Origin: Deltaproteobacteria bacterium
GTDB lineage: Bacteria; Myxococcota_A; Polyangia; JAAYKL01
Reading direction: 5' to 3'
DNA: 40,260 nucleotides
Assembly: GCA_016935665.1 (NCBI GenBank)
Contig: JAFGQN010000021.1
Coordinates: 1 to 40,260 of the forward strand
Numbering within the stretch: the stretch's first letter is position 1; each line of letters begins with the position of its first letter. A program made the translations under genes and the position numbers. Positions 5,001-19,483 of this stretch are shown piece by piece. The notes under the pieces are model-generated. The model did not search any database. It saw nothing but the letters and a program-made list of their open reading frames with translations, and was not told where the DNA came from.

Positions 5001-5204
5001 CTGAATGGTGTCCAGTGAAAACTCCGGAAACACTTCCTGCTTGCTTTTAAACACGCCGATAAGTCCCCCCAGCAGTATGATGGCCATCAGCAGATTGGCG
5101 GCCACGGAATTGTTGGCCATCCAACCGATAGCCCCTTTTCGCAATCCCTTTTTCAACTCATTCGACGGGGTCTTCTTTTTTTCAGTTTGTTTCTCCGGGG
5201 CCAT
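2001..5204 (-). CDS. RND-family efflux transporter, inner-membrane pump (HAE1-like)
   Basis: Proton-driven pump of a tripartite RND exporter, 1067 residues, the normal AcrB/MexB size. After a Lys-rich cytoplasmic start comes TM1 (NNSVAANLLMAIILLGGL), then the first large periplasmic porter half. TM4 carries GMVVDDAIVVGEN with the adjacent aspartates D418 and D419, the family's proton-relay pair. The second half begins after a cytoplasmic linker, repeats the fold and shows GVVVNDSLVLVDA in the equivalent helix. Early residues VPYPGASPEETEQ and AEGSGMVTIEI fit HAE1-type pumps rather than the metal-exporting HME type, but the substrate cannot be read. The ATG follows AGGAG by eight bases. The adaptor gene ends two bases upstream, so both are cotranslated in the tetR-tolC-adaptor-pump operon. 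Confidence 0.95.
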   Translation of the reverse strand: MAPEKQTEKKKTPSNELKKGLRKGAIGWMANNSVAANLLMAIILLGGLIGVFKSKQEVFPEFSLDTIQVQVPYPGASPEETEQGIVLAIEEAVRGLDGVKRVTSTAAEGSGMVTIEILSGENADSVLQDVKNAVDRITSFPEEVERPLVKLLAPRSRVISLVISADRELKELHEAAEMARSDLLEYPEITQVEIEGVPALEISIEIPQDTLETYGLTLEQVATAVKAASIELPGGSVKTSAGEVLVRVTDRKKAGVEFEDIILRSSLSGSQVRLGDIAKIKDGFAETDAASYFNGKRAVRVTAYRVGDETPKAVSQKVHEYVDVLQKKLPGGFELKLWQDDSELLTDRIDLLVKNAKYGGILVVLLLALILRLRLAFWVSLGIPISFLGAFFMLPALGVSINMLTLFAFIVTLGMVVDDAIVVGENIYHKVQQGIPKLQAAVEGAREMAMPITFSILTTMVAFAPMLFVPGIMGKLFMLIPLIVILVLGVSLFESFFILPAHLAHSTGADNEKRSGLFSKIQMAISGSLDKFVDKSYRPVLKAMVRFRYIVLAGAIAVLLLTVGTVLGGFVPFKFFPTLEGDLVRATAELPYGTPVAETIKVQKQLEAAAKKILAPHGGDKILRGMFTNLGSGPTSRRGPHAGTAGSGGSHLVTIELNLVPSDERDVGSEQLRRDWEQAIPKMAGLKSLTFKDMVGPSAGAAVDVVLIHDDMRLLQRASDELASELRGFSDLTDIETSFSEGKKQVDYRLLPKARSLGLTSFEIARQIRSAFYGTEALREQRGRNELKVMVRYPESDRKSEFNIENMLIRTSEGGQVPLQYVAEASRNLSPTSIKREDGKRTVNVTAELMPGVASPEKVLKTLKGTILPNLLKKYSGMKWEMAGEQREQMEAFSALGINFIIALVVMFALIAIPFRSYIQPIIIMTAIPFGFVGAILGHLLMGYNLSFISVMGIVALAGVVVNDSLVLVDAINVKRRSGESAFESVIHGGARRFRPILLTSLTTFLGLAPMITESSIQARFLIPMAISLGFGVLFSTLITLMLVPALYMIVEDGLGLIRRFKNWVNA

Positions 5205-5206
5205 GA

Positions 5207-6460
5207 CTATTTCTCCTGCCCTTTGTCCATACGGGAGGACAGTTCTCGACCCTTTTTATTATTCGTCTCAACCGGGGCATCTGCCGTTGCCTTTTTGGCG
5301 CTACCGTTCACCCGCGCCACCGGCATGCCTTCGAGAGGGAAGGAAATAGGACTGACAACAATCTCGTCACCGCTCTTAAGACCTCCCGATATAATCACGA
5401 GTTCAGGCTCTTTCCAGGCCACCTGCACCTCTGCTCTCTCCAGACGATCGTCTTTGGAAACACGCCACACGAATTCGCCTTCACGGTGGGCGCCTCTGGG
5501 GATGCTGATAACATCCTGCATGACATCCCCTTCAATCTCTACTTCCACATAGGCTCCCGCCAGCAGCGGCAATCCCGAATCGCCCGAGTCAAATGGCTTT
5601 TGCACTTCGACCAGCAAAGTGGCCGTACGGTTGCGACTGTCCAGTTGTCCCAGCAGTCGAATCACATGTCCATGGCGCACAATCTGTTTGTTGCCGCCCA
5701 CCTTTTGAATGACCTGGGCCACCGAGCCATCCTCCGCATTCAATCCGGGAATGCGAATGGCGTTCAGTTGCTCCACCGGCACGGACACCTCCACCCACAA
5801 CGCCTCGGTCCCCATCAGGGTCATCAGTTGCGAGCTGGGACCCACCACCTGGCCCACGTCCACATTCTTTTGTAGAATCATGGCGTCAAACGGCGCCTTT
5901 ATCACGGTCTTTTGTAAATTCAGTTTGGCCCGTGCCAGACTGCTCTTGGCGGTCTGCTGCTGTTGTTGGGCTTCTTCCAGCTGCGGCTTGCGCAATACCA
6001 GATCCGACCCGGCACCGACAGTGTCGCCACGGTTCACCAGTTCCCATTCCTTTTTGGCCACATGCCCGCGACTCTGCTCCAGCGTCAGATTCAGTTTGGC
6101 CTGTTCCACCTGACCCATCTGCTGCTCCAACGCCAGCTTGTAATCGCGCTTATCGATGCGGGCGATAATCTCTCCTTTTTTAAAGCGACTGCCCGGGATG
6201 AGATTGGGCGACACCCAGGTGATTTTGCCGGTCACTTCGGGCATCATGACAATCTGAGTGGCGGCCTGCACGGCGCCGCTGGCCAGAACGCGCACCGGAC
6301 GGGTTTCCGCAGTTACCTTCATGGTTTCCACCTGCAGTACCCGTTGAGTCGGAGCCACGTGTTTGGCTGTTTTGGCTTTGTTCTTTAAGTGCATCATCCC
6401 AAAGCCACCCAGAGCGATAATAACAACAGGGATAAAAAATTTGAATACGAACGCTTTCAT
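5207..6460 (-). CDS. RND efflux periplasmic adaptor (HlyD/AcrA-type membrane fusion protein)
   Basis: Adaptor of 417 residues linking the inner-membrane pump to the outer-membrane channel. An N-terminal anchor (FIPVVIIALGGFGMM, residues about 9-24) keeps it in the inner membrane and replaces the lipid anchor seen in AcrA. There follow the first lipoyl half (GSRFKKGEIIARID), an alpha-helical hairpin rich in Gln and Glu (about residues 100-185), the second lipoyl half (KAPFDAMILQKNVDVGQVV), a beta-barrel segment and a membrane-proximal domain. The C-terminal tail (KKGRELSSRMDKGQEK) is basic and probably unstructured. The start ATG has GGAG six bases upstream. The stop lies two bases from the pump ATG. 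Part of the same operon as tolC and tetR. Confidence 0.93.
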   Translation of the reverse strand: MKAFVFKFFIPVVIIALGGFGMMHLKNKAKTAKHVAPTQRVLQVETMKVTAETRPVRVLASGAVQAATQIVMMPEVTGKITWVSPNLIPGSRFKKGEIIARIDKRDYKLALEQQMGQVEQAKLNLTLEQSRGHVAKKEWELVNRGDTVGAGSDLVLRKPQLEEAQQQQQTAKSSLARAKLNLQKTVIKAPFDAMILQKNVDVGQVVGPSSQLMTLMGTEALWVEVSVPVEQLNAIRIPGLNAEDGSVAQVIQKVGGNKQIVRHGHVIRLLGQLDSRNRTATLLVEVQKPFDSGDSGLPLLAGAYVEVEIEGDVMQDVISIPRGAHREGEFVWRVSKDDRLERAEVQVAWKEPELVIISGGLKSGDEIVVSPISFPLEGMPVARVNGSAKKATADAPVETNNKKGRELSSRMDKGQEK

Positions 6461-6471
6461 GGGAACTCCAA

Positions 6472-7983
6472 TTATTCAGTCACAAGCTTCCGGGTCCAAT
6501 TGCCACCCAGCGCTTCCAATAGGTTAATTCGGGCCGACAGCAGATTTCGCTCCGCCTGAATGAGGTTTAATTGATTCAGCTGCAACACATCGTTGGCAGT
6601 GAGTACGTTGATGTAGTTGGACAACCCCGCCAAATAGCGACGGGTGGCCTCCTGCACGGTGAGTTCGGACACTTTGGTTTGCGCCTGCAGCGCCGCCAGA
6701 TACTCCCGCTGCGCCCGTTCGCGCTCCTGCGCCGCCCGCACCTGTGTTCGCATCTGCAACACATTGTTTTCAAGCGCATACTGGGCGCTCACGGTTTGTG
6801 CTTTTGCCAGCTGAATGGCCGTGCGGTTGGCACCTCCCATATAGATGGGCACCGTGAGGGTGGCCCCAATCTGCCAGGCCTCGTCGCCATCCCATTCGTT
6901 GATGCGCGTCCAGCCGTAGCCCACCTTCCCCATAAACGCCAAAGAGGGCAGCAGGGCGCGCTTTGCCTGGGTTTCTTTTATTTTCAACGCGTCGAGCCGA
7001 ATGGTGGCTGCCCGCAGTTCGGGTCTGCCCGTCATCAAACGACTGTTGAGTTGATTGTCGGCCTGCACTTTGGGGGCGGCGCCCAGCTCTGGCAATTCGG
7101 CCGGGATTTGGGGCAATGTCTCCACCGGCACATCCAACAGTGCCGCCAGCTGCAATTTGCCGCTTTCGACAATGGTTTTGGCCAAAGGAAGCTGTGCTTT
7201 TTTGGATTCCACCTGTGCCCGCTGCTGCAGCACATCGAGGGACGTGGCCGTTCCCGCATTGAATTGTGCGGTTACCAGTTGAAGCAGTTTCTCGTAGTTT
7301 TCAATCTGGGCCTCGATGAGCTGGACCCGTTTGTTGGCGGCCACAACATCGTAGTAGTTTTGAACCACCAACGACGCAATGGTCATGGCCTGCGCCTGCA
7401 CATCCTCCCTTGATGCGGACACTTCCTTCAGCGACGCCTGACGGGCCATGCGATAGCGTCTAGTGATATCCACTTCGTACTTTGCAACCAACGCGGCCGA
7501 CACAGTTTGCATATAGTTGGGGTAGTCTGGGGAAGGCGCATTCTGCATTGCCCGCAATTGGTTGAGGTTGATACCCAACAAATCTGCGGTTCCCTGATCG
7601 ATATTATCAGCTTCAATAAATGAAAGCAGATTGGATGCAGAGCCGGTAACGGGTGCATCAAAGTCCTTCAGCAGGTACGACCCCTCTGCGTACACCACCG
7701 GGCGCATGGGAGCCAGGGTGGCCTCTGCGGCGGCTTCGGCCACGTTGATGCGGGCGTTAGTGGCATCAATTCCCGGATTTCCCCTGAGGGCACGGTGAAC
7801 GAGGTCGTTTAACACCGGATCATCAAATCCACTCCAGGGAGAACCGGTCACCGCAGCGTCCTTCTGCCTGTCGTTGGACGATGGGCCTGCCATCTGCGAT
7901 TCTGCCGCGATGGCGTCAAACGCTGCAAACATCCAAATAAAACCAAATAAAATAAGAGCATTAGCCGTTCCAACACGATTCAT
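6472..7983 (-). CDS. TolC-family outer-membrane efflux channel
   Basis: Outer-membrane factor of the tripartite pump, 503 residues. The start at 7983 is chosen because it opens a clear signal peptide (MNRVGTANALILFGF..., cleavage near AIAA|ES), has AGGAG eight bases upstream and overlaps the tetR stop in an ATGA. The frame stays open upstream to about 8325, but that stretch lies wholly inside tetR and is not protein-like. The mature protein shows the duplicated OEP pattern: long heptad-rich helices (for example SASREDVQAQAMTIASLVVQ, residues about 185-300, and again 370-480), with beta segments such as YEVDITRRYR and PSLAFMGKVGYGW. There is no Cys after the signal, so it is not a lipoprotein. 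It ends 11 bases before the adaptor ATG. Confidence 0.92.
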   Translation of the reverse strand: MNRVGTANALILFGFIWMFAAFDAIAAESQMAGPSSNDRQKDAAVTGSPWSGFDDPVLNDLVHRALRGNPGIDATNARINVAEAAAEATLAPMRPVVYAEGSYLLKDFDAPVTGSASNLLSFIEADNIDQGTADLLGINLNQLRAMQNAPSPDYPNYMQTVSAALVAKYEVDITRRYRMARQASLKEVSASREDVQAQAMTIASLVVQNYYDVVAANKRVQLIEAQIENYEKLLQLVTAQFNAGTATSLDVLQQRAQVESKKAQLPLAKTIVESGKLQLAALLDVPVETLPQIPAELPELGAAPKVQADNQLNSRLMTGRPELRAATIRLDALKIKETQAKRALLPSLAFMGKVGYGWTRINEWDGDEAWQIGATLTVPIYMGGANRTAIQLAKAQTVSAQYALENNVLQMRTQVRAAQERERAQREYLAALQAQTKVSELTVQEATRRYLAGLSNYINVLTANDVLQLNQLNLIQAERNLLSARINLLEALGGNWTRKLVTE

Positions 7984-8606
7984 TGCGAAAACTCCTGGGT
8001 CACAATACCGCTGCAAAAATTGCGAACGGTGTCCTGAATATAAACATTGTCGTCCTCTATGCCTGTCCCTGGCTGTGACATTATTAATCGAAAAAAAACA
8101 CGTCCCTGCATGGCCCCCATCAAATTCATGGCCAGCACGTCCACATCGACATCGGCGCGAATCTGCCCGTTTTCCTTTGCCCGCCGCACAAACCCGGCAA
8201 TACCTTCGAGCACGCGCAGGGGAGGCGGCTTTTTCATGGCGGAAAAGAATCTTTCCGGAGAAATCAGGCTGCGCTGGTTGTGCATGGCAATAATGCGAGG
8301 CAATATTTCCACCAGTAACGCCCATAGCCGCTGAAACATCTCCGTTAACTGCGGCTCAATGGGCCCCTTTTGGGGATGCGTGGAAAGCCATATTGAGAGG
8401 CCCACCACATTGGTGAGAATCTCCTTGGAGGCCACAGCTGCGATAAATAAATCTTCTTTTGTTTTAAATCGCTTAAACAATGTCGCCTGAGAAATTCCCG
8501 TCTTTTGAGCGATTTCCTGGGTGGACACCTGCGGTCCTTTCTCCAGAAAGCAGTTCCGGGCCACCTCCAGTACTTTCTCGTCGGATACTATTTTGGGTCG
8601 AACCAT
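7980..8606 (-). CDS. TetR-family transcriptional repressor of the efflux operon
   Basis: A 208-residue TetR-type regulator. The N-terminal helix-turn-helix is plain: VSTQEIAQKTGISQATLFKRF followed by KTKEDLF (residues about 27-54). The C-terminal ligand-binding part is helical and poorly conserved, as usual. I chose the ATG at 8606 (MVRPKIVSDEKVL), which has GGAG five bases upstream; the frame runs on to 8639 but that would put codons in the operator palindrome. The stop codon overlaps the tolC ATG (ATGA), so regulator and channel are translationally coupled and the whole operon is probably autorepressed through the palindrome at 8624-8643. A hydrophobic pump substrate is the likely inducer by analogy with AcrR/TtgR-type systems, but this is inference. 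Confidence 0.93.
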   Translation of the reverse strand: MVRPKIVSDEKVLEVARNCFLEKGPQVSTQEIAQKTGISQATLFKRFKTKEDLFIAAVASKEILTNVVGLSIWLSTHPQKGPIEPQLTEMFQRLWALLVEILPRIIAMHNQRSLISPERFFSAMKKPPPLRVLEGIAGFVRRAKENGQIRADVDVDVLAMNLMGAMQGRVFFRLIMSQPGTGIEDDNVYIQDTVRNFCSGIVTQEFSQ

Positions 8607-8623
8607 GGTCACTCCATTCTTTA

Positions 8624-8643
8624 GTAAGTGAGCGCTCACTTAC
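8624..8643. promoter_or_regulatory. Putative TetR operator, perfect 20-bp palindrome
   Basis: The half-site GTAAGTGAGC is followed immediately by its exact reverse complement GCTCACTTAC. It lies 17 bases upstream of the tetR ATG and about 110 bases before the divergent gene at 8752. The core TGAGCGCTCA resembles operators of TetR-type efflux repressors. Its position suits autorepression of the tetR-tolC-MFP-RND operon; an effect on the divergent cluster is possible. Confidence 0.75.
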
Positions 8644-8751: not shown

Positions 8752-10422
8752 ATGAAACATACACCCGATGAGACAACACTCGATAAGGAACAGATTGCCA
8801 AAGCGTTCGTACATGCCGCGTTTGAAAAGAAACTCCTGGCGGACCAAATCGATGGTCTCTATGAATCTCTGGACAATATCAGTGCGAGTCTGGACATCGA
8901 GTCCAGGCAGCAACTCTTTAAAAATACAAAGGAATATATGGAGAAACTCGCCCACCGCATAAAGGATGTCGAACGGCAGCTGAATGAAATGCTTCCTCAG
9001 GTCATCGCGTTTAATAACGAAACGTTCTTCCTCCATTCCACCGCATCTGACCCCAGGATGGATAACACGCTCTCATTTGCCACTCGAAAACCCAAACGAT
9101 CTGACGAGCCATTTAACGATACGAGCCTGGAAAAACCGCCGGAATCAGAGGAACCCCCTCTGGTCAGAGTGACGCTGGACATGGACGCAGGCGGTGAGAA
9201 GGTTCCGGCGGGCATTCAGCTGCCCCATTATGCGCCCGAAAAACCCACGCTTCTTGCGATGGAGCCCGCCCCTCTGGTGGACGAGAATGATGAACCGTAT
9301 CAGTTTGAAGAAGACGACGACGTTCGGCTGTCCCAGGACGAAATTTTCGACACGCCTCCGCCGGTATTGACACCGTCACAGAATCCCGACTACGTGTTGG
9401 ACGATGCAGTCAAAGCGTTTTCGGAACAGGTGGCTGGGCCGGAGAATAATATCGGGCAGGTGGCAGTGGATAGTTCCGAATCCGCCGACGCAAACCATGA
9501 CGCAAAGATTGAAGATACCCATTGCGCATCGGAATTGTCCGAGACATCCCCGGTGACGGCTCGCGGGCCCAAAGACACGTTTCGCTATGCGGAGCTGCCG
9601 TCGCGCATTCCCGCCCCCGATTCGTCACGGCAAATCGCAAAAATTGATTTGGCACCGGCTAGAGACGTTATTGATGGAACGGAGGAGTCGGTTCCGAAAA
9701 CCGACACACTGCGGCTCGCACAGTCTACCGCCGGCGACACGGATTTACCGGATTCCGACGGCCATGCGCCACACGACAATCTGGCAGGGATGCTGGCGCC
9801 GGACGAAACAGAGGCCGAACCCCCAACTGAACTGCACACTGATCCCTCTGCAGAGATGGCATCAGATGACTCCGATGACGCGACAGAAGCCGCCCCCCGC
9901 GATCGCACAGAGGAAAGTATTCTATTCTGGAAGCAAAGCGCGATTTCATCGCCATCCACTGATGATACTCCGTACAAAACCATCCTGAAAGACGCCACCG
10001 CCATGTTTGACAGACATTTTGCGTTGAGTAGAATTCCCTCGCTGTTGCCGGGCAACGCTGCGTCCTCGGCGCCTCCGGAGCATCCCGCGGCAGACAGCGA
10101 TTCGCCTAAAACACACCAGTTGGATGGTTCCGCAAAGGAATCGGCACAGAACGATGTGTCTCCAGACGCCGAAACATCTGACAGCAATGACGGAGCTTCC
10201 GGCAACGCATACGATGATGTAAATCCACTGGAAAAAGAGCTGTTCGCCATGATCAGCGCCCATATGGATTCCAGCGAAACAGAAGCCAGGTTTTCCTATC
10301 CACCACAATCTCTGACGGACACCGATGCCGTTGCCATTCCTCCAGGTGACGACCTGCCCCCTGCAGAAAATATCGAGGACACCAAACAGGAAGAAACCCA
10401 CTCGAACCGGAGCAACCACTGA
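8752..10422 (+). CDS. Large acidic protein with N-terminal coiled coil, unknown function
   Basis: Not recognised as a known family. The ATG at 8752 (MKHTPDETTLDKEQIAKAF) has GGAG eight bases upstream; the frame opens earlier at 8668, but that would add a segment without a ribosome site. The 556-residue product has no signal peptide or membrane span and should be cytoplasmic. Residues about 10-90 form amphipathic helices (LYESLDNISASLDIESRQQ; YMEKLAHRIKDVERQLNEML) suited to a coiled coil. The rest is very acidic and low-complexity, rich in Asp, Glu, Ser, Pro and Ala, with few hydrophobic blocks, so largely disordered. Its stop shares one base with the next ATG (TGATG), giving tight coupling to the small coiled-coil protein. 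It may act as a scaffold for the membrane complex encoded downstream; this rests on gene order only. Confidence 0.75.
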   Translation: MKHTPDETTLDKEQIAKAFVHAAFEKKLLADQIDGLYESLDNISASLDIESRQQLFKNTKEYMEKLAHRIKDVERQLNEMLPQVIAFNNETFFLHSTASDPRMDNTLSFATRKPKRSDEPFNDTSLEKPPESEEPPLVRVTLDMDAGGEKVPAGIQLPHYAPEKPTLLAMEPAPLVDENDEPYQFEEDDDVRLSQDEIFDTPPPVLTPSQNPDYVLDDAVKAFSEQVAGPENNIGQVAVDSSESADANHDAKIEDTHCASELSETSPVTARGPKDTFRYAELPSRIPAPDSSRQIAKIDLAPARDVIDGTEESVPKTDTLRLAQSTAGDTDLPDSDGHAPHDNLAGMLAPDETEAEPPTELHTDPSAEMASDDSDDATEAAPRDRTEESILFWKQSAISSPSTDDTPYKTILKDATAMFDRHFALSRIPSLLPGNAASSAPPEHPAADSDSPKTHQLDGSAKESAQNDVSPDAETSDSNDGASGNAYDDVNPLEKELFAMISAHMDSSETEARFSYPPQSLTDTDAVAIPPGDDLPPAENIEDTKQEETHSNRSNH

Positions 10423-10787
10423 TGATAACACACCTGGATGTGGAAGAATTGAGCCAGAGCATCATTGACGAAGCGATTCATCTGGCCCGCAACGATCACA
10501 TTCCCGACTGGGAAAGATGTCTTGAGCAACTGGATATACGGATTGCGAATTTAGACGAAGAGGTTCTTCACAAGCCGATAATTCCCCCGGAACTGCAGGA
10601 CGCATATCGGGAGAGGATTGACAATCTGTCGCTGGAGAACACGACACTGCGCACGCGGCTCGGACAGACCAAAGAAGCGCTGGAGCGCGCACGGGAAGCG
10701 TACATGGCAGAGCGGGAACAGACGCGACGACTCCAAACAAAGCTGGAAGAGTTGGAGCAGCGACTTCTGACCTACCTGAGCCATTAG
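10422..10787 (+). CDS. Small coiled-coil protein, unknown function
   Basis: A 121-residue protein with no signal peptide. The first half (MITHLDVEELSQSIIDEAIH) is helical and acidic; the second half from about residue 64 is a continuous heptad pattern (RIDNLSLENTTLRTRLGQT, then KEALERAREAYMAEREQT and KLEELEQRLLTYLSH), a long parallel or hairpin coiled coil. The ATG overlaps the previous stop by one base, and GGAG precedes it by nine bases. The VWA gene begins 24 bases downstream. Such a protein could pair with the coiled coil of its upstream neighbour; no biochemical role can be assigned from sequence. Confidence 0.75.
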   Translation: MITHLDVEELSQSIIDEAIHLARNDHIPDWERCLEQLDIRIANLDEEVLHKPIIPPELQDAYRERIDNLSLENTTLRTRLGQTKEALERAREAYMAEREQTRRLQTKLEELEQRLLTYLSH

Positions 10788-10811
10788 TGTATTTGAAAGA
10801 CAGGAAATATC

Positions 10812-12161
10812 ATGTATAGGCACCACATCGAGCACACTTTCACAACGAAAAACGTTTTGCATCAGCTGCATTTGCGTCGTCCCAGTGTTCAGCTGATTTG
10901 CGCCGCCATTGTCACTGCTATCGTATGTGTCGCTCCGGACACACGGGCGTCAGAAGACCACAGCGCCGACATCATTGTGGTGCTCGATTTGTCAGGCAGT
11001 ATGAAATCCGATGACACTGCTGACCGCTTCAACGCTTTTTTTTCGTGGGCGTCAACCTTTAAGGTCAAGGGAGATCGCATTGGTATCGTGGCCATGGGGA
11101 ATGGGGCCCGCCTCATTGCGCCCCTCACCGAAGCTGCGGAAATAGACTTTGCAAAACTCTCAAACCGACTGAAACGACGCGCCAAATACACCGATGTGGC
11201 CGCAGGACTGGAAAACGCATACTACGAGTTAAAGAACAATTCCAGGCCAAAGGTCGCCAAACTCATTCTCCTGTATTCCGATGCGCAGATTGATATGCCC
11301 AAAGGTACGTGGGACATGGAGAACTCGCTGCGCTATTTACGCGGCAGTCTTATTCCATCCCTCAGTCAGGAACAAATCGGACTTCTCGCCATTGTGCCCG
11401 ATGGACTCAAGGCGAATTTCCCGTTGCTGCAGGAAATGGCAGTTGGGACAAACGGTGTGTACTATCGCGGTTTGCCACCAGACGCTGTGGCCACCAGACA
11501 CAAAATTCTACAAAAGCAGTACTATCAAACCGAAACACCTGCCGCAATCGCAGCAGGGGCGCCCAAAGCGACACCTCACCCCCAATTGCCCCTCCCTTCC
11601 GAATCGCAATCCGAATCCGCCCCCCCAGTACTGAAAACCAAAGCGGAACCATCGGAATCCCCCACGGCAGCGGGCTCCGGCGTACCAAAGGAAGTGGGCG
11701 GCATTGGAATCGGATTTCTGGTACTGGCAGGAGTGCTGCTGATGGGCTTTACGATAATGCTGGTCGCCCTCGCGGTTCTGTTCAGGCGTACCCGTCAACC
11801 GGCGCCGACCCGGAAAGAGGAACTGGTGGATGTACTGCAGGAGCTGCAGTCACTGAAATCTGAAACGGAAAAATCGGGTATGTACGTCAGACAGATTGCT
11901 CATGATATGGATGCCGACGGCGAACCGAATTTTGGCGAGCCCCAGGATGAATTGTCACTGAGTATGGTCACCCCGTTCCTCGATTACGAAGAGGCCAAAG
12001 CGGTCATTCACAGACAGCACCCTGTCGTCGATGAGATTGCAGCGTCTCCGGCGTTTGAGCACAAGGACGCTGAGAATGGGAATCTCTCGGTTTCCACCAT
12101 GGAAACACTGATTGGCACAGCCGCTGCGACAACGGACGACAAAGAGAGGGGACAAGCATGA
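10812..12161 (+). CDS. VWA-domain single-pass membrane protein
   Basis: A 449-residue protein whose ATG follows AGGAAATATC. Residues about 24-46 are a signal peptide (PSVQLICAAIVTAIVCV, cleavage near TRA|SE). The exported part begins with a von Willebrand A domain: the metal-binding MIDAS motif D59-L-S-G-S63, a Thr at the second site (KYTDVAAGLENAY) and LILLYSDAQID as the later strand. A Pro/Ser-rich linker follows (about residues 235-295), then a transmembrane helix (IGIGFLVLAGVLLMGFTIML, about 297-325) with RRTR on its cytoplasmic side, then about 120 acidic cytoplasmic residues. VWA domains bind protein partners through a divalent metal; in Tad systems a VWA is found in TadG-type proteins, but no TadG pilin-like N-terminus is seen. 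The stop overlaps the MinD-like ATG in ATGA. Confidence 0.88.
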   Translation: MYRHHIEHTFTTKNVLHQLHLRRPSVQLICAAIVTAIVCVAPDTRASEDHSADIIVVLDLSGSMKSDDTADRFNAFFSWASTFKVKGDRIGIVAMGNGARLIAPLTEAAEIDFAKLSNRLKRRAKYTDVAAGLENAYYELKNNSRPKVAKLILLYSDAQIDMPKGTWDMENSLRYLRGSLIPSLSQEQIGLLAIVPDGLKANFPLLQEMAVGTNGVYYRGLPPDAVATRHKILQKQYYQTETPAAIAAGAPKATPHPQLPLPSESQSESAPPVLKTKAEPSESPTAAGSGVPKEVGGIGIGFLVLAGVLLMGFTIMLVALAVLFRRTRQPAPTRKEELVDVLQELQSLKSETEKSGMYVRQIAHDMDADGEPNFGEPQDELSLSMVTPFLDYEEAKAVIHRQHPVVDEIAASPAFEHKDAENGNLSVSTMETLIGTAAATTDDKERGQA

Positions 12162-13066
12162 AAAAGCCCGCAATTATACCTGTGGCAGGGGGCAAAGGGG
12201 GTATCGGCAAAAGCATTATCGCCGCCAATATCGCCGTTACGCTGGCAGCTCAGGGACACGATGTGGTGGCCATGGATTTGGACCTCGGTGGTTCCAATCT
12301 GCACGCAATTTTTGGGATTCGAAATTCCGAAAAAAATATTGTGCATTTTGCGACGCATCGGGATGTGGCTCTGGAAGACATGGTGCTGCCCACCAAATAT
12401 GCGGGCACCAGGATAATATGTGGCGCCGCCAACATCGCCGGCGCGGCCGACATTCCCGCGCAACAGAAACTGCGCATCATTCACAATATTGAGACATTGT
12501 CCGCGGAATACGTCATTCTCGATTTGGGCGCCGGCAGTTCGTTCAATGTCACCGATTTTTTTCTCACAGGGGAACAGGGCGTGATTGTGGTCGTTCCGGA
12601 AATCACCTCTCTGATGGACGCGTACAGCTTTTTGAAAACAACACTGTACCGCCGACTGCAAATGGAATGGCAGCATGAGCCGGAAATCAAAATTCTGATA
12701 GAGGAATTTAAAAATCCCGGAAACGATGCTCATATGCAAACAGTTGAAGATTTACTGCGCGCCGTACGCAATGTCAGTATGGCCCATGAGCACGAAATGC
12801 GGATGAAACTGCAAAGCTATGGCGTCAAGGTGGTTGTGAACAAGGTTCGCCAGAAAAAAGATTTCCAGGTGGTGCGCACCATTCAGCAACTGGCGCTTAA
12901 AAATCTGAATCTGGCCGTCTACAATGCGGGCTTCGTCCCCTATGACACCACAGTGGAGCACTCCGTCAACCAGATGGTTCCTTTTGTTCAACTCTTTCCA
13001 CAAAGCGCCGCCACTCACCAGATGGGACAACTGGCCAAAGCTCTAACCGCTACGTCCGCGGCATAA
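12158..13066 (+). CDS. MinD/ParA-family ATPase (TadZ/FlhG-like)
   Basis: A 302-residue P-loop ATPase of the MinD/ParA group. The deviant Walker A motif GGKGGIGKS is at residues 11-19, with both lysines K13 and K18. DLDLGG follows at the switch I/A' position, and YVILDLGAGSS provides Walker B. There is no fused receiver domain, which separates it from full-length CpaE/TadZ and makes it closer in size to MinD/FlhG. No C-terminal amphipathic membrane-targeting helix is obvious. The ATG lies in an ATGA overlap with the VWA gene and has GAGAGGGG upstream. Proteins of this family place or count membrane machines (septum, flagella, pili, chemoreceptors). Here it probably positions the complex encoded around it, including the CpaF-type ATPase 3.7 kb downstream. 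Confidence 0.9.
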   Translation: MKKPAIIPVAGGKGGIGKSIIAANIAVTLAAQGHDVVAMDLDLGGSNLHAIFGIRNSEKNIVHFATHRDVALEDMVLPTKYAGTRIICGAANIAGAADIPAQQKLRIIHNIETLSAEYVILDLGAGSSFNVTDFFLTGEQGVIVVVPEITSLMDAYSFLKTTLYRRLQMEWQHEPEIKILIEEFKNPGNDAHMQTVEDLLRAVRNVSMAHEHEMRMKLQSYGVKVVVNKVRQKKDFQVVRTIQQLALKNLNLAVYNAGFVPYDTTVEHSVNQMVPFVQLFPQSAATHQMGQLAKALTATSAA

Positions 13067-13154
13067 TTCATCTACCCTGGCCGCAGATGAGGCATACCAG
13101 CAACAGTTGCACGAAAAGCAAATGTTTTCGTCTCATTTCATATTGTGCGCTATA

Positions 13155-13940
13155 ATGTTTCACGTGACCCGGATTACCCAACATCTTTTTCTGAATATCG
13201 TGCTGCTCGTCGTGCTGACATGTGGGGCATGCGGACGAATTTCGTTTGAGGATGGCGACACCTCCCATGAATTTGTCGGTGATGGTGATACCGATGCGGA
13301 CAGTTGGGTCACGACGCCAACCGACACTGAGACTGAGGACACCGCGCCGGACAACACTCTTCACTATTCCGGTCCAACCGAAGCCATATCCATCGCTCCT
13401 CCAGACGGTGAGCGTTTTATAGACAGTGCCGGCAACTCGGCTGGCGTACAGGGCATATTCTATGCATACAGCGACGATACGTCCTCTATAGCCGTGTCCA
13501 ATTCCGCAGGTGGGTTTTTCTATCTCAGCGGCCAGGTGGCTGCCGCACCGCCGAATGAATACATGTATATCGGTATGGGCACAGGGCTATGTTTCGATAC
13601 CAACGATACGTATTATCCCATTGGAAACTGTCCCTTTGCCCCCCAGCTGGCAGATCAAATGGTTGGTATTTCATTTGAGATGACCGGCACATATCCCCTA
13701 TTCGGTGTTCTGGAGATAACGTTTATCTGTACCAGTACGGGCAACATGCTGTACTGGCGCATTCCGGCGACCGGAGAACACGAAGTGCTTTTTTCGGACA
13801 TGCAGGTTCGCCAACCCAACATCCCGTTTACTGCCGGAGACATCGACCGGGTGCAGTTTCAGCTCTCCAATACGACCCAGCCCCCTATTTCGTATGATTT
13901 CTTTTTGGGGAATTTCAAGATTCTAATGAGAGCAGACTGA
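13155..13940 (+). CDS. Putative lipoprotein with acidic linker and beta-rich domain
   Basis: A 261-residue product from the ATG at 13155 (MFHVTRITQHLFLNIVLLVV), a hydrophobic signal ending in LTCGACG; either Cys could be lipidated, and the lipobox is imperfect. Earlier starts at 13122 (ATG) or 13107 (TTG) are possible because none has a convincing ribosome site. After the Cys comes an Asp/Thr-rich linker (DGDTDADSW; TDTETEDTAPD) typical of myxobacterial-type surface lipoproteins. The remaining 180 residues are beta-rich and hydrophobic-aromatic, with GIFYAYSDD near the start and FFLGNFKILMRAD at the end, which looks like a jelly-roll or carbohydrate-binding-type sandwich. I cannot name the family. 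It sits between the two halves of the FHA/CpaF cluster and converges with the minus-strand VWA lipoprotein. Confidence 0.7.
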   Translation: MFHVTRITQHLFLNIVLLVVLTCGACGRISFEDGDTSHEFVGDGDTDADSWVTTPTDTETEDTAPDNTLHYSGPTEAISIAPPDGERFIDSAGNSAGVQGIFYAYSDDTSSIAVSNSAGGFFYLSGQVAAAPPNEYMYIGMGTGLCFDTNDTYYPIGNCPFAPQLADQMVGISFEMTGTYPLFGVLEITFICTSTGNMLYWRIPATGEHEVLFSDMQVRQPNIPFTAGDIDRVQFQLSNTTQPPISYDFFLGNFKILMRAD

Positions 13941-13960
13941 CGGAATGGAAAAAACGAAAG

Positions 13961-15100
13961 CTATTCCAATATGGGGACGTCTTCGTCGCTGCAGGCCAGC
14001 TGCACTTTGACCCCACTGACATCGCCATCTTCAAGGGTGGCGCATGCAGCCTGGCAAAACTCAATGGCGGTGTGGCTGCTGTCGCTAAACGTCCAGCCCC
14101 TGTTTTTGGCGCAATTGTCATCGCGTGGAATCGCCTTTCCATCGAAGGTCACCACAACGCGATTGTAATCCACGTTGTCGCTCTGGAAGGTGCCCAGTTT
14201 AAAATCACAGCTGACCACCACAGTCTCTGCGATTTGACTGAGGGCGGACTTCAGCTCGTCCCCATTATCTGCGCTCAGATACTGAGTAAACGGCGTACCG
14301 CCGGCAGCAGCGATGGCATTGAGCTGGTCTGGATCAGCGCCCTCGCCAAAGCCGATAACAATCGTCTTGATGCCTTCGTCATTTCTCAGTGTCGAGGTCA
14401 CTGCCGCCAGTTCCTGCGCCGTGGCGCCACCCTGCTGGTCATAAACACCTTCCGGGCCACATGAATCCTGCCCATCCGAAATAATCACCAGATAACTGCC
14501 GCCTCCAGCGGAAAATGCCGGTGCGTATGCCGAATCTGTATAATTCTGCATAGCCAAAAGGAGCGGTGTTGCATCACCTGGCTCCCACTGACTCAATTCA
14601 TTGGTGATGACAGTGCCGTTGTTCAATGCCACATCGTGCACCACGGACTCTCCCACCGCGCACGAGGAGCCATTGCCGCCACCAGACCTCCCCCCCGGAC
14701 GCGCAAAAAGGTCCAGACCAAAACTGATTTCACTATCGTAGGCGGTCACCATCTCCTGAATCGCGCCCATGGCCAGTGTCCATTTATTGTCTTCGCGCAT
14801 GGACTGGGACTTGTCCTCCAGCAGCATCACACGAGTGGCCACCCGATTTAGTTCTGTTGTGAGTGTTTCGCATGCGACAAAATCATCGCCAATTGTGTTG
14901 TCAAAGCCGTCATCAATAATCCCCCCCAGACCGCCATCGCCGCCAGGCAATCCGGTACTGTTGTCGCCCTCACCGCCCATAATGCCCCCAAGACCAGCGC
15001 CGCCTGCCTGTCCATCTTCTCCCCCCTCCCCTTCGCTACATCCTGACCAGACTCCAACGATAGATAATAGACACAGTAATGCAACCTGATGATGTTTCAT
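13961..15100 (-). CDS. VWA-domain lipoprotein
   Basis: A 379-residue lipoprotein. The ATG at 15100 (MKHHQVALLCLLSIVGVWSG) has AGGAG seven bases upstream; the upstream extension to 15133 is rejected. The signal peptide ends in WSGC, with Cys20 or so as the lipid site. A Gly/Glu-rich linker with repeated GGLGGI-like units (residues about 24-70) is followed by a VWA domain: MIDAS D-K-S-Q-S within MLLEDKSQSM, the second-site Thr in GDATPLLLAMQ, and the strand YLVIISDGQDS. The C-terminal part holds several Cys (VSCDF, DDNCAK, EFCQAACATL, LACSD) that probably form disulfides. Expected at the outer membrane or cell surface. It is transcribed opposite to its neighbours, so it may not belong to the flanking cluster, although a second VWA protein lies there. 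Confidence 0.88.
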   Translation of the reverse strand: MKHHQVALLCLLSIVGVWSGCSEGEGGEDGQAGGAGLGGIMGGEGDNSTGLPGGDGGLGGIIDDGFDNTIGDDFVACETLTTELNRVATRVMLLEDKSQSMREDNKWTLAMGAIQEMVTAYDSEISFGLDLFARPGGRSGGGNGSSCAVGESVVHDVALNNGTVITNELSQWEPGDATPLLLAMQNYTDSAYAPAFSAGGGSYLVIISDGQDSCGPEGVYDQQGGATAQELAAVTSTLRNDEGIKTIVIGFGEGADPDQLNAIAAAGGTPFTQYLSADNGDELKSALSQIAETVVVSCDFKLGTFQSDNVDYNRVVVTFDGKAIPRDDNCAKNRGWTFSDSSHTAIEFCQAACATLEDGDVSGVKVQLACSDEDVPILE

Positions 15101-15502
15101 TTGTTTCTCCTGATGTTGAATGCCCGTGTGCACGCCATTTGCTCTTTTGCGGCGTTGTCTCCATCATCCAATTCTATCAAAAAAAAAGTTTCTGGTGACA
15201 ACAATCTGCAACGCCTCCCGGTGAAACATGTCTCATTGCAGTGCAATTTTCCAATGGACTTTTCACCATCGTTCCCATGTTGGTGGATTGGGGCCCTCAA
15301 ACAGGAAAAATCAGCGTTAACAGAATACCCACATGCAACAAACGCCGCACTTTTACCGATATTGTTTTCCGGAGAACCGACTGACAACACTGCCAAACAA
15401 AAAAACTGCATTTTCAACACGTTAGAACTTTTTTTGTTTTTTTTTGCAACAAAATCAAAAAACGGCCGAAGAGGAGAAGCCATCCAGCGAAAGGAAATTG
15501 GG
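15101..15502. other. Divergent intergenic region, 402 bases
   Basis: Separates the minus-strand VWA lipoprotein from the FHA operon and should hold promoters for both. The plus frame is open through it, but the translation is not protein-like. It contains homopolymer tracts: nine A at about 15179-15187 and two T runs near 15429-15445. I could not find a convincing -35/-10 pair. Confidence 0.5.
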
Positions 15503-16351
15503 ATGCAGGAAATAGAAATAGCGGTACTTATCGATAAAAAAAAACAGGCCACCTATCGATTCAGTGAGTTCCCCCTTGAAATTGGCAGAGACGCCAGCTG
15601 CCATTTTATCATTCGACATAAAGTCATTGGGAGAAAACTGTGCAAAGTGTGGTGGGAGCCGGACGGCATCATTCACCTGGAGGAACACTCCGGATTGACC
15701 AATCCCATTTACGTTAATGGCACACTGGTGGAGGGGGGAATTGCCGCAACATCTCTCTCCGCGCGCATCGGCCCGGTGGGTCTGGAGATTCGCAAGGCAA
15801 CTCGTAATCCGACAGGTACAGCACAAACGCGTCCATCATGGGCCGGCATTTCGTTGCCAGTGCGCGTTGCGGTCGGTGCGCTCACTTTGCTTCTGGCCGC
15901 CATCTGGATTTGGACAGCACCCTCCCGGCCCTCTTCCGGGGTATCCATGGCTGACTTTCCTTTAAAACTGACCTTTACCACGGTGGACGCCGTATCTCCA
16001 GATGCGGAACAGGCCGCTTACGCCGTGCGAATGGCGGAAACCGAATACAGTCGCATGCCAGAGGACATTCAGAGGCGAAAATCCGCGATTGAACAAATGG
16101 ACAAAGCCGCGCATCTACCCCTACCCAATTCCCCATTGTCGGCCCGGGCACGTGTCATTTCAAAGAAATGGAAATCGGAATTGAACGCGGCATATCGACT
16201 CGAGCTGGTAACGCTGTTTCACGCCATCGATAACGACGACGTGAAGCAGATTCAAAAGAGCGCCCCAAAGTTGATTCAGTATCTCGATACCTCCGAGAAA
16301 GGACTCATTTTATGGCTTCAACGCCAAAGCAACATTGGAGAAGAACAATGA
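15503..16351 (+). CDS. FHA-domain single-pass membrane protein
   Basis: A 282-residue protein. The ATG at 15503 (MQEIEIAVLIDKKKQATYRF) is preceded by AAAGGAAATTGGG; the frame is open far upstream but that part lacks coding character. Residues about 5-95 form a forkhead-associated domain: the strand FPLEIGRDASCHF, the R-K-L-C-K-V region in place of the common S-x-x-H, and NPIYVNGTLVEGG. FHA domains bind phosphothreonine; the usual Ser/His pair is replaced here, so binding strength is uncertain. A Pro/Thr linker leads to a TM helix (VRVAVGALTLLLAAIWIW, about 118-136) and about 145 helical periplasmic residues. The topology would place FHA in the cytoplasm. The stop overlaps the next ATG (ATGA). 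First gene of a five-gene chain ending at 19041. Confidence 0.85.
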   Translation: MQEIEIAVLIDKKKQATYRFSEFPLEIGRDASCHFIIRHKVIGRKLCKVWWEPDGIIHLEEHSGLTNPIYVNGTLVEGGIAATSLSARIGPVGLEIRKATRNPTGTAQTRPSWAGISLPVRVAVGALTLLLAAIWIWTAPSRPSSGVSMADFPLKLTFTTVDAVSPDAEQAAYAVRMAETEYSRMPEDIQRRKSAIEQMDKAAHLPLPNSPLSARARVISKKWKSELNAAYRLELVTLFHAIDNDDVKQIQKSAPKLIQYLDTSEKGLILWLQRQSNIGEEQ

Positions 16352-16764
16352 AACCACAATTTCATCACCCCATTTATTTCCCTCAACCCTTGCAGCGAAT
16401 TGCCGGATGGGCGGGTATGCTTTTTCTGCTCTGTCATTGTGGCAGTTCCCCACCCACGTCCCGACATTTTAAAGGGCCCGCAGATTACCTTGAAACCGGT
16501 TTGGCGCTGCGAGACATGGGAGACCATCTGAACGCCAGCTACTGGCTGGAAGCCGCACTGGATCAGTCCCCGGAGCGGGAGACGCACATTCTGCGATTAC
16601 TGGTGGAGGAACAAATACTCGCCGGCCGATTGCTGGCTGCACAAAGCGGTCTGGACAGACTTCGCGTAATTGCTGCGAATGATTCGAGTATTACCATGCT
16701 GGCGATTGCTATCAGCAACGCCACCGCTCATCAGTCCAATGCGATGAAGGAGGCAACGCCATGA
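16348..16764 (+). CDS. TPR-like lipoprotein (TadD-like)
   Basis: A 138-residue product. The ATG at 16348 overlaps the FHA stop (ATGA) and has GGAG seven bases upstream. The N-terminus has a basic/polar start followed by the hydrophobic block GWAGMLFLLCHCGSS, a lipoprotein signal with Cys in an imperfect lipobox. The mature part contains helix pairs in TPR style: DYLETGLALRDMGDHLNASY with WLEAALDQSP, then LLVEEQILAGRLLAAQSGLD. Two or three repeats fit. Tad loci encode a TPR lipoprotein, TadD, needed for secretin assembly; size and neighbourhood agree with such a role, but the similarity is structural only. Its stop overlaps the CpaF-like ATG in ATGA. Confidence 0.75.
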   Translation: MKPQFHHPIYFPQPLQRIAGWAGMLFLLCHCGSSPPTSRHFKGPADYLETGLALRDMGDHLNASYWLEAALDQSPERETHILRLLVEEQILAGRLLAAQSGLDRLRVIAANDSSITMLAIAISNATAHQSNAMKEATP

Positions 16765-17771
16765 TTCCCCAGGGCATATTTGAGCATTCCATCACGCGCT
16801 ATCTGCAACCCATAGCAGGGCTGCTGAACGACGACAACATCAGCGAAATCATGATTAATGGTCCAGATGAAATCTGGATTGAAAAAAAAGGGGTGCTGCA
16901 TCCCACGGATCTTCGCTTTCCCAACACACAGGCGCTGGATGCGGCATTAACCAATATTTCACAATACTGCGGCAGGCCCTGGGATGAAAACCATCCCATA
17001 TTGGAAACACACCTGCCCGACGGTTCCCGTCTCGAGGCGGTAATGGCCCCAATTGCCAAAAATGGTCCCACCGTGGCCATTCGTCGATTCTTCAAATCCA
17101 AACTGACCGTGGCCGATTTGATTCAAAACAATACCATCAGCGAAGCCGCTGCCCTTTACCTGGCCAAAGCCATCGCGCAAAAACAGAATGTGGTGGTCTC
17201 CGGCGGAACGGGCAGCGGAAAAACATCTTTGTTATGCGCATTGTCATCCTTCTTTGTAAAACGGGAACGTATTGTTGTCATCGAAGACACGCATGAATTG
17301 GATTTACAGCAACCACACGTTGTTTATCTGGAGAGTCGTTCTGCGGACGAAAAGGGGCGCGGTGAAATCCGCATTCGGGATCTGCTCCGTGCCACATTGC
17401 GACTTCGGCCCGACCGCATCCTGATTGGTGAAGTCCGTGGAGACGAAGCGCTGGACCTGATTCAGGCAATGACCAGCGGCCACGCCGGCTCCATGACCAC
17501 CGTTCATGCCAACACACCTCTGGATGCGTTGCACCGGTTCGAAACAATGATACTCAGTTCACAGTCCAATATTCCGCACCAGGCTATTTGTGCGCAAATC
17601 GCATCCGCCATCGATATAATTGTGCAAATCAAAAGAGGGCACACAGGAAAACGAATGGTGAGTGATATCAGCACCGTTTCATCTGCGGTAATGCAGGGGC
17701 ATTACAGCGTCACGCCGATTTTCAAACGCGACTTTGATGGGCCACTGTGTTACGTGGAGACTTCCAAATGA
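16761..17771 (+). CDS. CpaF/TadA-type secretion ATPase
   Basis: A 336-residue cytoplasmic hexameric ATPase of the type II/IV secretion superfamily, CpaF/TadA/VirB11 branch. The N-terminal domain has ISEIMINGPDEIWIEKKG, the hallmark start of CpaF proteins. Walker A GGTGSGKT covers residues 148-155 (K154). VVIEDTHEL is the Asp/Glu box, DRILIGEVRGDEA is Walker B, and GHAGSMTTVHANTP is the His box. All catalytic motifs are intact. The protein is shorter than classic CpaF (about 450 residues) because the long N-terminal extension is missing. These ATPases normally drive pilin assembly through the membrane proteins TadB and TadC, neither of which is encoded in this window. ATGA overlaps join it to both neighbours. 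Confidence 0.95.
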   Translation: MIPQGIFEHSITRYLQPIAGLLNDDNISEIMINGPDEIWIEKKGVLHPTDLRFPNTQALDAALTNISQYCGRPWDENHPILETHLPDGSRLEAVMAPIAKNGPTVAIRRFFKSKLTVADLIQNNTISEAAALYLAKAIAQKQNVVVSGGTGSGKTSLLCALSSFFVKRERIVVIEDTHELDLQQPHVVYLESRSADEKGRGEIRIRDLLRATLRLRPDRILIGEVRGDEALDLIQAMTSGHAGSMTTVHANTPLDALHRFETMILSSQSNIPHQAICAQIASAIDIIVQIKRGHTGKRMVSDISTVSSAVMQGHYSVTPIFKRDFDGPLCYVETSK

Positions 17772-18382
17772 CAGACATCCGTTCCATCGATTTGAATGAA
17801 ACGCGGGTGTGTCGGGTAGATCCGGTGTCGGGTGAAGAACTGCCGTCCCTCGACAAAACACGGGTCATGCCAAAGGGGAACCATCATTTCGATGCCACGG
17901 TCCAGGCCGCACACCCGTACGCGGAGCCACCGGCGACCTCTGCTTTTGTGGCCGAATATGTTCCCATTACCAGTCACGGGGCGTCCGGCGACGCCACTGC
18001 GCTGTGGACACCAACTACCGCACAGCTTCAAAAAGTCGCCGCATGGTTCTCCCGAAATCGACGGCGAATCATATTGCTGCTGGTCAGTGTGGTGATTGCC
18101 ATTGCCGTCCCATTTGCAACTCTGCAGGCAAATTCCGACGACACAACCCCTCGTCACTCTTTGAGAAGGAAAAAGAGCACGCCTCCCAACCAGCCCTCTC
18201 CTCGAAAAAGCGACACGGAAGTAATAACTGGCGCCACAGCAATACAGGCGGCTACATGGTTGAACAACGGCGATTACAAAAAGGCCAGAGCGGCATACAG
18301 CTTTCTTGCGAAACGGCATCCCGAAAACAAATCCTATACACTGGCAAAATCCATACTTGAAAACCAGGAGGAATATCAATGA
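17768..18382 (+). CDS. Single-pass membrane protein with TRV motifs and TPR-like tail
   Basis: A 204-residue protein. The start at 17768 (MTDIRSIDLNETRVCRVD) has GGAG nine bases upstream and overlaps the CpaF stop. About 97 cytoplasmic residues are low in predicted structure and contain two Thr-Arg-Val motifs (NETRV, T12; DKTRV, T31). A basic patch RNRRR precedes the TM helix (IILLLVSVVIAIAVPFATLQ, about 99-120), which supports an N-in orientation. The periplasmic part has a basic linker and a single TPR-like helix pair (AATWLNNGDYKKARAAYSFL, then AKRHPENKSYTLAKSILE). I know no named family. The TRV threonines are acidic/basic-flanked sites of a kind phosphorylated by Ser/Thr kinases and could be bound by the FHA protein three genes upstream; this is inference. 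Confidence 0.75.
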   Translation: MTDIRSIDLNETRVCRVDPVSGEELPSLDKTRVMPKGNHHFDATVQAAHPYAEPPATSAFVAEYVPITSHGASGDATALWTPTTAQLQKVAAWFSRNRRRIILLLVSVVIAIAVPFATLQANSDDTTPRHSLRRKKSTPPNQPSPRKSDTEVITGATAIQAATWLNNGDYKKARAAYSFLAKRHPENKSYTLAKSILENQEEYQ

Positions 18383-19041
18383 TAGTCATTTGGGCACTGC
18401 TCATTTTCGGGTTGGTCAGCTGCGATGCAAAAACACGGCTGGAGCCATTTCGCATCGCCATACACATCCACAACGAGGAAAACGTGCCAATGTCCGATAT
18501 CCCGGTTCAACTCGGAAAAACGCTCATCCGAACAGACCACACCGGTAGTGCCACCTTCAGGTTCGAAGGAAACGAGGGCGACACCGTAACCATCTCAATT
18601 GAATGTCCAAAAGAACACCGGGCCCACCCCGCCGGCAGCGCGCGCACTGTTCTGAAGAAGATAAACGCATCTGATAAACCCATTCCCGTTCCGGTTGACA
18701 TGGAATTCGCATGTGTCTCGTTGAAGCGGGAACATGTTCTTGTGGTAAAAACGAATCGAAGCGACTTGCCTGTAAAAATAAACGGGCGAACAGTGACTCA
18801 TACCAATGCGGACGGGGTTGCGCATGCCGTTGTCCGCGGTAAAACAGATGAAACGATGCACCTGAGAATCGACACGGAACGGCATCCTTCGCTGCGCCCG
18901 CAAAACCCTTCGCTTACCTTAGCCCTGCCGCCAAAGCGAAAATTCCTGTTCTTCGATCAGCAATTCGAAGAAATGACCCGTCCTGCAAAGTCGAAGAAAA
19001 AAAAGAAACGCGGCGCGTTCGCCGGCCCCAGGCGGCTATGA
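18379..19041 (+). CDS. Lipoprotein with beta-sandwich repeats, unknown function
   Basis: A 220-residue lipoprotein that starts in an ATGA overlap and has GAGGAATATC upstream. The signal peptide is short (MIVIWALLIFGLVSC), with a good lipobox LVSC and Cys15 as lipid site. Two beta-rich modules follow: residues about 24-110 (IAIHIHNEENVPMSDIPVQL, then GKTLIRTDHTGSATFRFEG) resemble carboxypeptidase-regulatory-like or Ig-like folds with the D-x-x-G-x-A/F turn, and residues about 118-175 (VKINGRTVTHTNADGVAH) look PEGA-like. The C-terminus is strongly basic (KSKKKKKRG), which might contact peptidoglycan or membrane lipids. It is the last gene of the FHA/CpaF chain; the opposite-strand roadblock gene ends 41 bases downstream. 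Confidence 0.75.
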   Translation: MIVIWALLIFGLVSCDAKTRLEPFRIAIHIHNEENVPMSDIPVQLGKTLIRTDHTGSATFRFEGNEGDTVTISIECPKEHRAHPAGSARTVLKKINASDKPIPVPVDMEFACVSLKREHVLVVKTNRSDLPVKINGRTVTHTNADGVAHAVVRGKTDETMHLRIDTERHPSLRPQNPSLTLALPPKRKFLFFDQQFEEMTRPAKSKKKKKRGAFAGPRRL

Positions 19042-19081: not shown

Positions 19082-19483
19082 TCAGATGTTTATCTCGCGT
19101 CGAATATCTCGAATGATCTCAATCAGTTTTCGATAAATCATCTGATTGAGATGCCCGGAGGTTACAATGACGGATAAAAATAAATCGTCGCCCATGGACA
19201 TGGTGATACTGTCCAGTTTTTCCGCGTGAATTTCGATTTGTTCCACTTCCCCCAGATTCAGAGAGTCAAAGCGGCGAGCCGCCGAAGCGGCGATGACCCC
19301 AATATGGGCCGCGGCCAAACGCGTATCGAATGGTTCAAGATACGAATGATAATCGATGGTCTCGCCTTCACTATCATAAAATACAGCGGCGCGAAATCCC
19401 GGACAGACACCATCGATGTGGGACAGTATTTCGGCAAAGGCCGAACGCTCCATATCTCTGTGGAGTTCGCCAGGCTTCTTCAT
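19082..19483 (-). CDS. Roadblock/LC7-domain protein
   Basis: A 133-residue cytoplasmic protein matching the roadblock/LC7 fold: helix AFAEILSHIDGVCPGFRAAV, strand FYDSEGETIDY, helix TRLAAAHIGVIAASAARRF, strands QIEIHAEKLDSITMSMGDDL and FLSVIVTSG, and a final helix. Family members such as MglB act with Ras-like GTPases to set polarity or gliding motility; others are energy sensors. No MglA-type GTPase is encoded in this window, so the partner must be elsewhere. The start overlaps the stop of the PpiC lipoprotein (ATGA), making it the last gene of the mcp-tat-ldt-ppiC chain. It converges with the FHA/CpaF operon. Confidence 0.8.
   Translation of the reverse strand: MKKPGELHRDMERSAFAEILSHIDGVCPGFRAAVFYDSEGETIDYHSYLEPFDTRLAAAHIGVIAASAARRFDSLNLGEVEQIEIHAEKLDSITMSMGDDLFLSVIVTSGHLNQMIYRKLIEIIRDIRREINI

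Follow-up and report, generated by a model that had tools for sequence, protein, structure and literature searches.

Tad pili have been stated to use always one bifunctional motor (PMC13170226). The Kil system of Myxococcus xanthus has also been described with a single ATPase (PMC8460266), and KilF, the Myxococcus counterpart of the ATPase called CpaF1 below, is needed for pilus formation (PMC12075869). Kil systems have been reported in Myxococcales, Bdellovibrionales and Bradymonadales (PMC8460266, PMC12075869). Here we describe a five-gene block, encoding FHA2, TPR2, CpaF2, TM2 and LIP2 (block 2, 15497–19041), in a 40,260-nucleotide stretch of DNA from a Deltaproteobacteria bacterium. This stretch, hereafter the window, takes up all of contig C249 in a genome (G000) of 8.16 Mb and 249 contigs. 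We read block 2, with a probability of about 0.72, as the distal half of an FHA-rich Kil-type Tad pilus system that has no TadZ and two CpaF ATPases, the second of which is most likely a retraction motor. That block 2 is part of a pilus system with two motors has good support; the PilT-like retraction role of CpaF2 is suggested by analogy.

The association with a pilus is carried by gene order in relatives. In more than 20 loci read directly, the order CpaB-secretin-FHA·CpaF1-TadB-TadC-FHA2-TPR2-CpaF2-TM2-LIP2 is kept on one strand, FHA2 orthologues thus coming after TadC. The loci read were L051–L054, L231–L250 and L266–L270, one complete genome (G207) among them; some end at contig edges, and TPR2, TM2 or LIP2 is below the profile threshold in some. 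The relatives in which block 2 directly follows the Tad core belong to families other than that of the window. CpaF2 and CpaF1 lie apart in the window's own family (f1) and in f27; the locus of ancestral type is contiguous and has been broken up in the window's family.

A phylum-wide search found CpaF2 in 62 of 284 Myxococcota genomes. Another CpaF lies 3.0–5.3 kb upstream on the same strand in 32 of the 62, which span ten families, and a Kil-type CpaF1 is present in 57, with one further partial match; the remaining four genomes are 77–87% complete. For the co-occurrence of CpaF1 and CpaF2, Fisher p is ~1e-37 (shared ancestry not corrected for). Nineteen genomes score as having CpaF1 without CpaF2, and the four of these that were read (L261, L262, L264 and L265, from families f36, f39, f40 and f54) have TadZ instead. 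Their loci run CpaB-secretin-TadZ-CpaF-TadB without CpaF2, and their CpaF frames are long (~730–790 amino acids, one of 1251). No TadZ was present in the two-motor loci read, and TadZ and CpaF2 look mutually exclusive across the loci read.

An initial annotation of the window had pointed out that TadB, TadC, secretin and prepilin peptidase are missing from it. We confirmed this, and a genome search located all of them elsewhere. Contig C3 carries FHA·CpaF1, TadB and TadC. A secretin gene with an open frame of 412 amino acids and a weak match to a pilus N-terminal-region model lies near the end of C131, and the end of C157 carries CpaB, a prepilin peptidase (Peptidase_A24) and weakly TadE-like genes below cut-off. 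From the orientation of the C157 and C131 ends, CpaB and the secretin gene could be neighbours across the contig break. Both proteins are most similar to those of two-motor loci. The secretin of Kil, for comparison, is short and has no N0. Besides these pieces, the genome has an ordinary Tad locus on C119, which includes a CpaF of its own and the only TadZ of the genome; the secretin and CpaB of this locus resemble those of ordinary Tad loci in other phyla. With the missing core on C3, C131 and C157, block 2 is therefore part of a Kil/Tad-type system that is dispersed and has two CpaF motors, and its clusters on C3, C131, C157 and C249, with extra FHA proteins and lipoproteins, are split in a Kil-like manner. 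The suggestion of a divergent, reduced Tad-like apparatus was thus right as to the apparatus and wrong as to its reduction, because the rest of the core sits elsewhere in the genome. That this core lacks the block 2 genes does make the block a dispersed part, as the annotation had allowed, but of an unusual two-motor system and not of an ordinary Tad system.

Three C157 genes between prepilin peptidase and CpaB (L276:6785-10576) encode two weakly TadE-like proteins and a 649-amino-acid protein with a hydrophobic N-terminal helix; they could be minor pilins of the tip, as in Kil.

The TadB/TadC-type genes of the genome form four pairs of T2SSF domains, on C116, C88, C119 and C3. Judged by neighbouring ATPases and secretin, the C116 and C88 pairs represent a type II secretion system and a type IVa pilus (T4aP). 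All four pairs being accounted for, CpaF2 has no platform of its own in this genome.

CpaF2 is a CpaF-type ATPase in its own right. Its best NCBIfam match is a TadA-family model (TIGR03819, E 5e-83, below its curated cut-off), and it matches the Protein Data Bank CpaF entry 8rkd with E 8e-111. Phylogenetically it forms its own CpaF clade, with 99% support in the SH-like approximate likelihood ratio test; the separating branch received 100/100 in a more careful tree. A few Planctomycetota sequences and one from Rhizobium also fall into the clade. Members outside Myxococcota that lie in or near Tad loci were seen in L125, L128, L131 and L174 (from Phycisphaerales, Planctomycetaceae, Rhizobium lusitanum and an uncultured bacterium). 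L191, from Chloroflexi, has two CpaF genes as well, neither of them in the CpaF2 clade.

The motor residues of CpaF2 are intact: the Walker A Lys, Asp-box Glu, Walker B Glu, the equivalents of R347 and R359 and the His-box His are kept in 56/56 sequences. CpaF2 is trimmed at its N terminus, with no FHA domain and neither N-terminal domain (NTD) 0 nor NTD1; a median of 16 residues is possible before NTD2, compared with 164 in other CpaF. Removal of NTD0 from Caulobacter CpaF lowers retraction (PMC11300603). In the same protein, the Central Loop residue E331 is predicted to contact the platform, and the fourfold substitution E331K/G332A/S333A/G334A abolishes both pili and infection by phage (PMC11300603). 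The equivalent Glu is present in all 45 CpaF1 and in 79 of 86 other CpaF sequences, whereas only 2 of 56 CpaF2 retain it; this position is Arg, Lys or His in 42 of the 56, usually Arg or Lys. Position 329 is Asp in place of Asn (55/56), and position 198 is Asn in place of Arg (50/56).

The proteins encoded around CpaF2 are membrane proteins and lipoproteins. The FHA domain of FHA2 scores just over the Pfam cut-off (E 2e-4), and the fold was confirmed by the AlphaFold model (predicted local distance difference test, pLDDT, 88.7), which has an FHA fold, a transmembrane helix at residues 120–140 and periplasmic helices. The model is most similar to FHA domains and also resembles the cytoplasmic domain of PscD from a type III secretion system. 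Homologues begin at 15497, which is most likely the gene start, and not 15089. TPR2 has weak TPR matches in the window and strong ones in an orthologue (L054:10343-10951); its sequence indicates a TPR lipoprotein of TadD-like layout. The window's TM2 lacks the N-terminal FHA domain seen in its orthologues from most of the class relatives examined. LIP2 is modelled as two CnaB-like β-sandwiches (pLDDT 92.4), for which Foldseek returned CnaB/pilin-type domains, and its lipobox Cys is invariant in an alignment of 31 sequences (A4). The last residues of its basic tail are family-specific, being GPRRL in f1, IRIN-like in f14 and IDLW in f27.

Phospho-threonine control, which the initial annotation had proposed, fares differently for the two FHA proteins. 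For the window's FHA2 it is doubtful because the phospho-threonine-binding Ser and His are replaced, and for f1 we rejected it; f24 and f27 keep the motif, which has degenerated in most class relatives. It is possible through the FHA domain fused to CpaF1 on C3 (E 1e-10), in which the GR/SRxH/NG motif is intact.

From these features we propose how the two-motor system might work. CpaF1 and CpaF2 would both act on the single TadB/TadC platform. CpaF1, with its FHA and N-terminal domains, would extend the pilus, and CpaF2, trimmed, active-looking and altered in its platform-contact loop, would be the second motor, most likely for retraction, as PilT stands beside PilB. Periplasmic TPR domains would be connected to the motor through FHA2 and TM2, and work at the outer-membrane side would fall to TPR2 and LIP2. 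On this reading, block 2 is one half, now displaced, of the type of gripping-pilus machine with which myxobacteria kill prey. A broader and more tentative proposal, which we hold at less than even odds, is that Tad/Kil pili of Myxococcota, and perhaps of some Planctomycetota, independently evolved CpaF2 from the CpaF family as a PilT-like retraction ATPase, losing N-terminal domains and rewiring the platform contact, with membrane FHA proteins exerting control in place of TadZ.

Several observations weigh against the assignment of block 2 to a two-motor pilus with a retraction ATPase. The pilus pieces sit on separate contigs in this genome, so the case for joint function rests on relatives. 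In one subgroup (G014, G020, G022, G028, G036 and G038), no FHA2, TPR2 or LIP2 could be recognised beside CpaF2. The Kil system of M. xanthus is described with one ATPase, and its pilus was seen to retract (PMC12075869). CpaF2 carries no known retraction-specific signature, and a protein with such intact motor motifs might also serve in extension, in mixed hexamers with CpaF1 or outside the pilus.

The alternative that survives best places CpaF2 on the extension side, as a second motor there or in mixed hexamers with CpaF1, for instance to give another pilin tip or more force, and not in retraction. PilU-like helper motors exist in T4aP, the catalytic residues of CpaF2 are all kept, and it shares an operon with CpaF1. 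Yet CpaF2 lacks NTD1 and most of its members have lost the E331 contact, mutation of which together with its neighbours abolishes Caulobacter pili (PMC11300603). We regard this alternative as possible but unlikely. Somewhat less likely still is an assembly or signalling ATPase that replaces TadZ and, acting via FHA2/TM2, positions the machine at contact sites or loads it there without moving pilin. The absence of TadZ from two-motor loci, which have up to three FHA proteins, fits such a role, as does the dynamic assembly of Kil upon prey contact (PMC8460266), but CpaF-type hexamers act on platform proteins, CpaF2 retains the motor motifs, and in the window's family FHA2 has lost its binding Ser and His. 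A helper motor, mixed hexamers and an assembly ATPase standing in for TadZ are thus weaker options for CpaF2 than a retraction motor. That CpaF2 is a duplicate without a role of its own, a spare dispersed from a one-motor Tad system of the ordinary sort, is very improbable: an ordinary Tad locus does exist on C119, but that locus comes with a CpaF and a TadZ of its own, the CpaF2 clade is old and separate and has stayed beside the same neighbours in many families, and the C3/C131/C157 set contradicts such an origin. We give the least weight of all to a separate envelope-spanning machine built from both blocks under phospho-threonine control, one of the two options of the initial annotation, because, despite the adjacency of the blocks in G000 and G002, block 2 is contiguous with CpaB-secretin-CpaF-TadB-TadC in relatives and block 1 does not travel with it.

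The two blocks do not form a single system. Of 39 genomes, only four (G000, G001, G002 and G010) have relatives of the VWA protein of block 1, whereas more than 20 of the same 39 have block 2. Strong orthologues of the block 1 MinD protein (58–85% identity) were found only in G001, G002 and G010. In G001 the blocks lie on different contigs, block 1 on C197 and block 2 on C297, each well away from the contig ends. Even in the window the two are not contiguous, because a lipoprotein gene (13107–13940) and an opposite-strand VWA lipoprotein gene (13961–15133) intervene; the latter remains beside block 1 in G001 and G002. The gene-order comparison that the initial annotation had called for thus bears out block 2 and not its pairing with block 1. 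The region 8752–15133 is best described as a rare coiled-coil/coiled-coil/VWA-transmembrane/MinD block with an added VWA lipoprotein; outside a single genus it occurs only in G010.

Two likenesses drawn for block 1 were also rejected. The MinD protein begins directly with the P-loop, has no CpaE/TadZ N-terminal domain and matches MinD models; therefore, it is not TadZ. As for TadG, only a VWA domain was found in the VWA protein, with no TadE part and with the transmembrane helix after the VWA domain.

In other respects the initial annotation of the genes holds. All nine genes that it named in the two blocks are present and open, with domains as described (Table 1), and most of them are joined by short overlaps, as it noted: four consecutive 4-base ATGA overlaps in block 2 (at 16348, 16761, 17768 and 18379), an ATGA overlap at the VWA/MinD junction of block 1 (12158) and one base shared by the two coiled-coil genes.

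Table 1 Features of blocks 1 and 2 and of the genes between them, in window coordinates.
Feature	Position	Strand	Remarks
Protein with coiled-coil N terminus, acidic, low-complexity (block 1)	8752..10422	+	not part of pilus system
Small coiled-coil protein (block 1)	10422..10787	+	not part of pilus system
VWA protein, signal peptide and transmembrane helix (block 1)	10812..12161	+	VWA_2 E 3e-11; not TadG
MinD/ParA ATPase (block 1)	12158..13066	+	CbiA/ParA E 1e-16; not TadZ
Lipoprotein gene between blocks	13107..13940	+	
VWA lipoprotein gene between blocks	13961..15133	-	VWA E 9e-5, just below cut-off
FHA2: cytoplasmic FHA, one transmembrane helix, helical periplasmic domain, 284 amino acids	15497..16351	+	Pfam FHA and AlphaFold
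TPR2: TPR-like lipoprotein	16348..16764	+	weak TPR matches; lipobox in most orthologues
CpaF2: CpaF/TadA-type motor ATPase without NTD0/NTD1	16761..17771	+	T2SSE E 6e-52
Walker A of CpaF2, GGTGSGKT, residues 148-155	17202..17225	+	conserved in 22 orthologues
Central Loop of CpaF2, D196-E-K198-G-R-G	17346..17363	+	K198 aligns with Caulobacter E331
Walker B glutamate E224 of CpaF2	17430..17432	+	56/56 conserved
TM2: single-pass, C-terminal TPR-like part	17768..18382	+	FHA domain of class relatives absent here
LIP2: lipoprotein, tandem CnaB-like β-sandwiches, basic C-terminal tail ending GPRRL	18379..19041	+	AlphaFold, Foldseek

Other genes of the window flank these blocks. A small Roadblock/LC7-like protein (19082–19483, minus strand; Pfam E 0.013, below cut-off) is encoded convergently with LIP2, and such a gene adjoins the CpaF2 block in several f1 genomes (L057–L060, L122 and L123). 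By eye, we also noted an apparent resistance-nodulation-division efflux operon with a TetR-type regulator (2001–8639, minus strand) and a TatC-like protein of 519 amino acids with a long low-complexity insertion between membrane helices (21796–23355, minus strand).

We consider the two-motor architecture a variant not previously reported, and its mechanism a proposal; in the literature searched, with limited coverage of subscription journals, we found no description of a Tad locus that contains a second CpaF. A two-motor Tad locus conserved in many Myxococcota opens the motor question to genetics, and it supplies names and an operon setting for FHA and lipoprotein genes that had stood unexplained in Kil-like predation systems. 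Where a genome is fragmented, an isolated CpaF block can turn out to be half of a pilus system.

Compared with the known systems, the locus departs from Tad and Kil in having two CpaF clades per locus where those are described with a single ATPase. It shares CpaB, secretin, CpaF, TadB/TadC and prepilin peptidase with canonical Tad (type IVc) pili such as Caulobacter Cpa (PMC11300603, PMC13170226), but has two CpaF motors, no TadZ/CpaE in the locus, and added FHA-transmembrane-TPR proteins and LIP2. Of the known systems it is closest to Kil (PMC8460266, PMC12075869), with which it shares an ATPase with a fused N-terminal FHA domain, other FHA proteins, lipoproteins and genes spread over several clusters; unlike Kil, it has a second, distinct CpaF in a conserved five-gene block, with CpaF1 on C3 and CpaF2 in the window. 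The closest parallel to the motor pair is PilB/PilT of type IVa pili, two paralogous hexameric ATPases on one platform, the second shorter and without the N-terminal domain of the first. CpaF2 is PilT-like in its intact ATPase motifs and in being shorter than the extension motor, and it would share the platform, there being no other TadB/TadC pair. However, CpaF2 arises within the CpaF/TadA family and not from PilT, and its likeness to PilT in retraction would be one of analogy.

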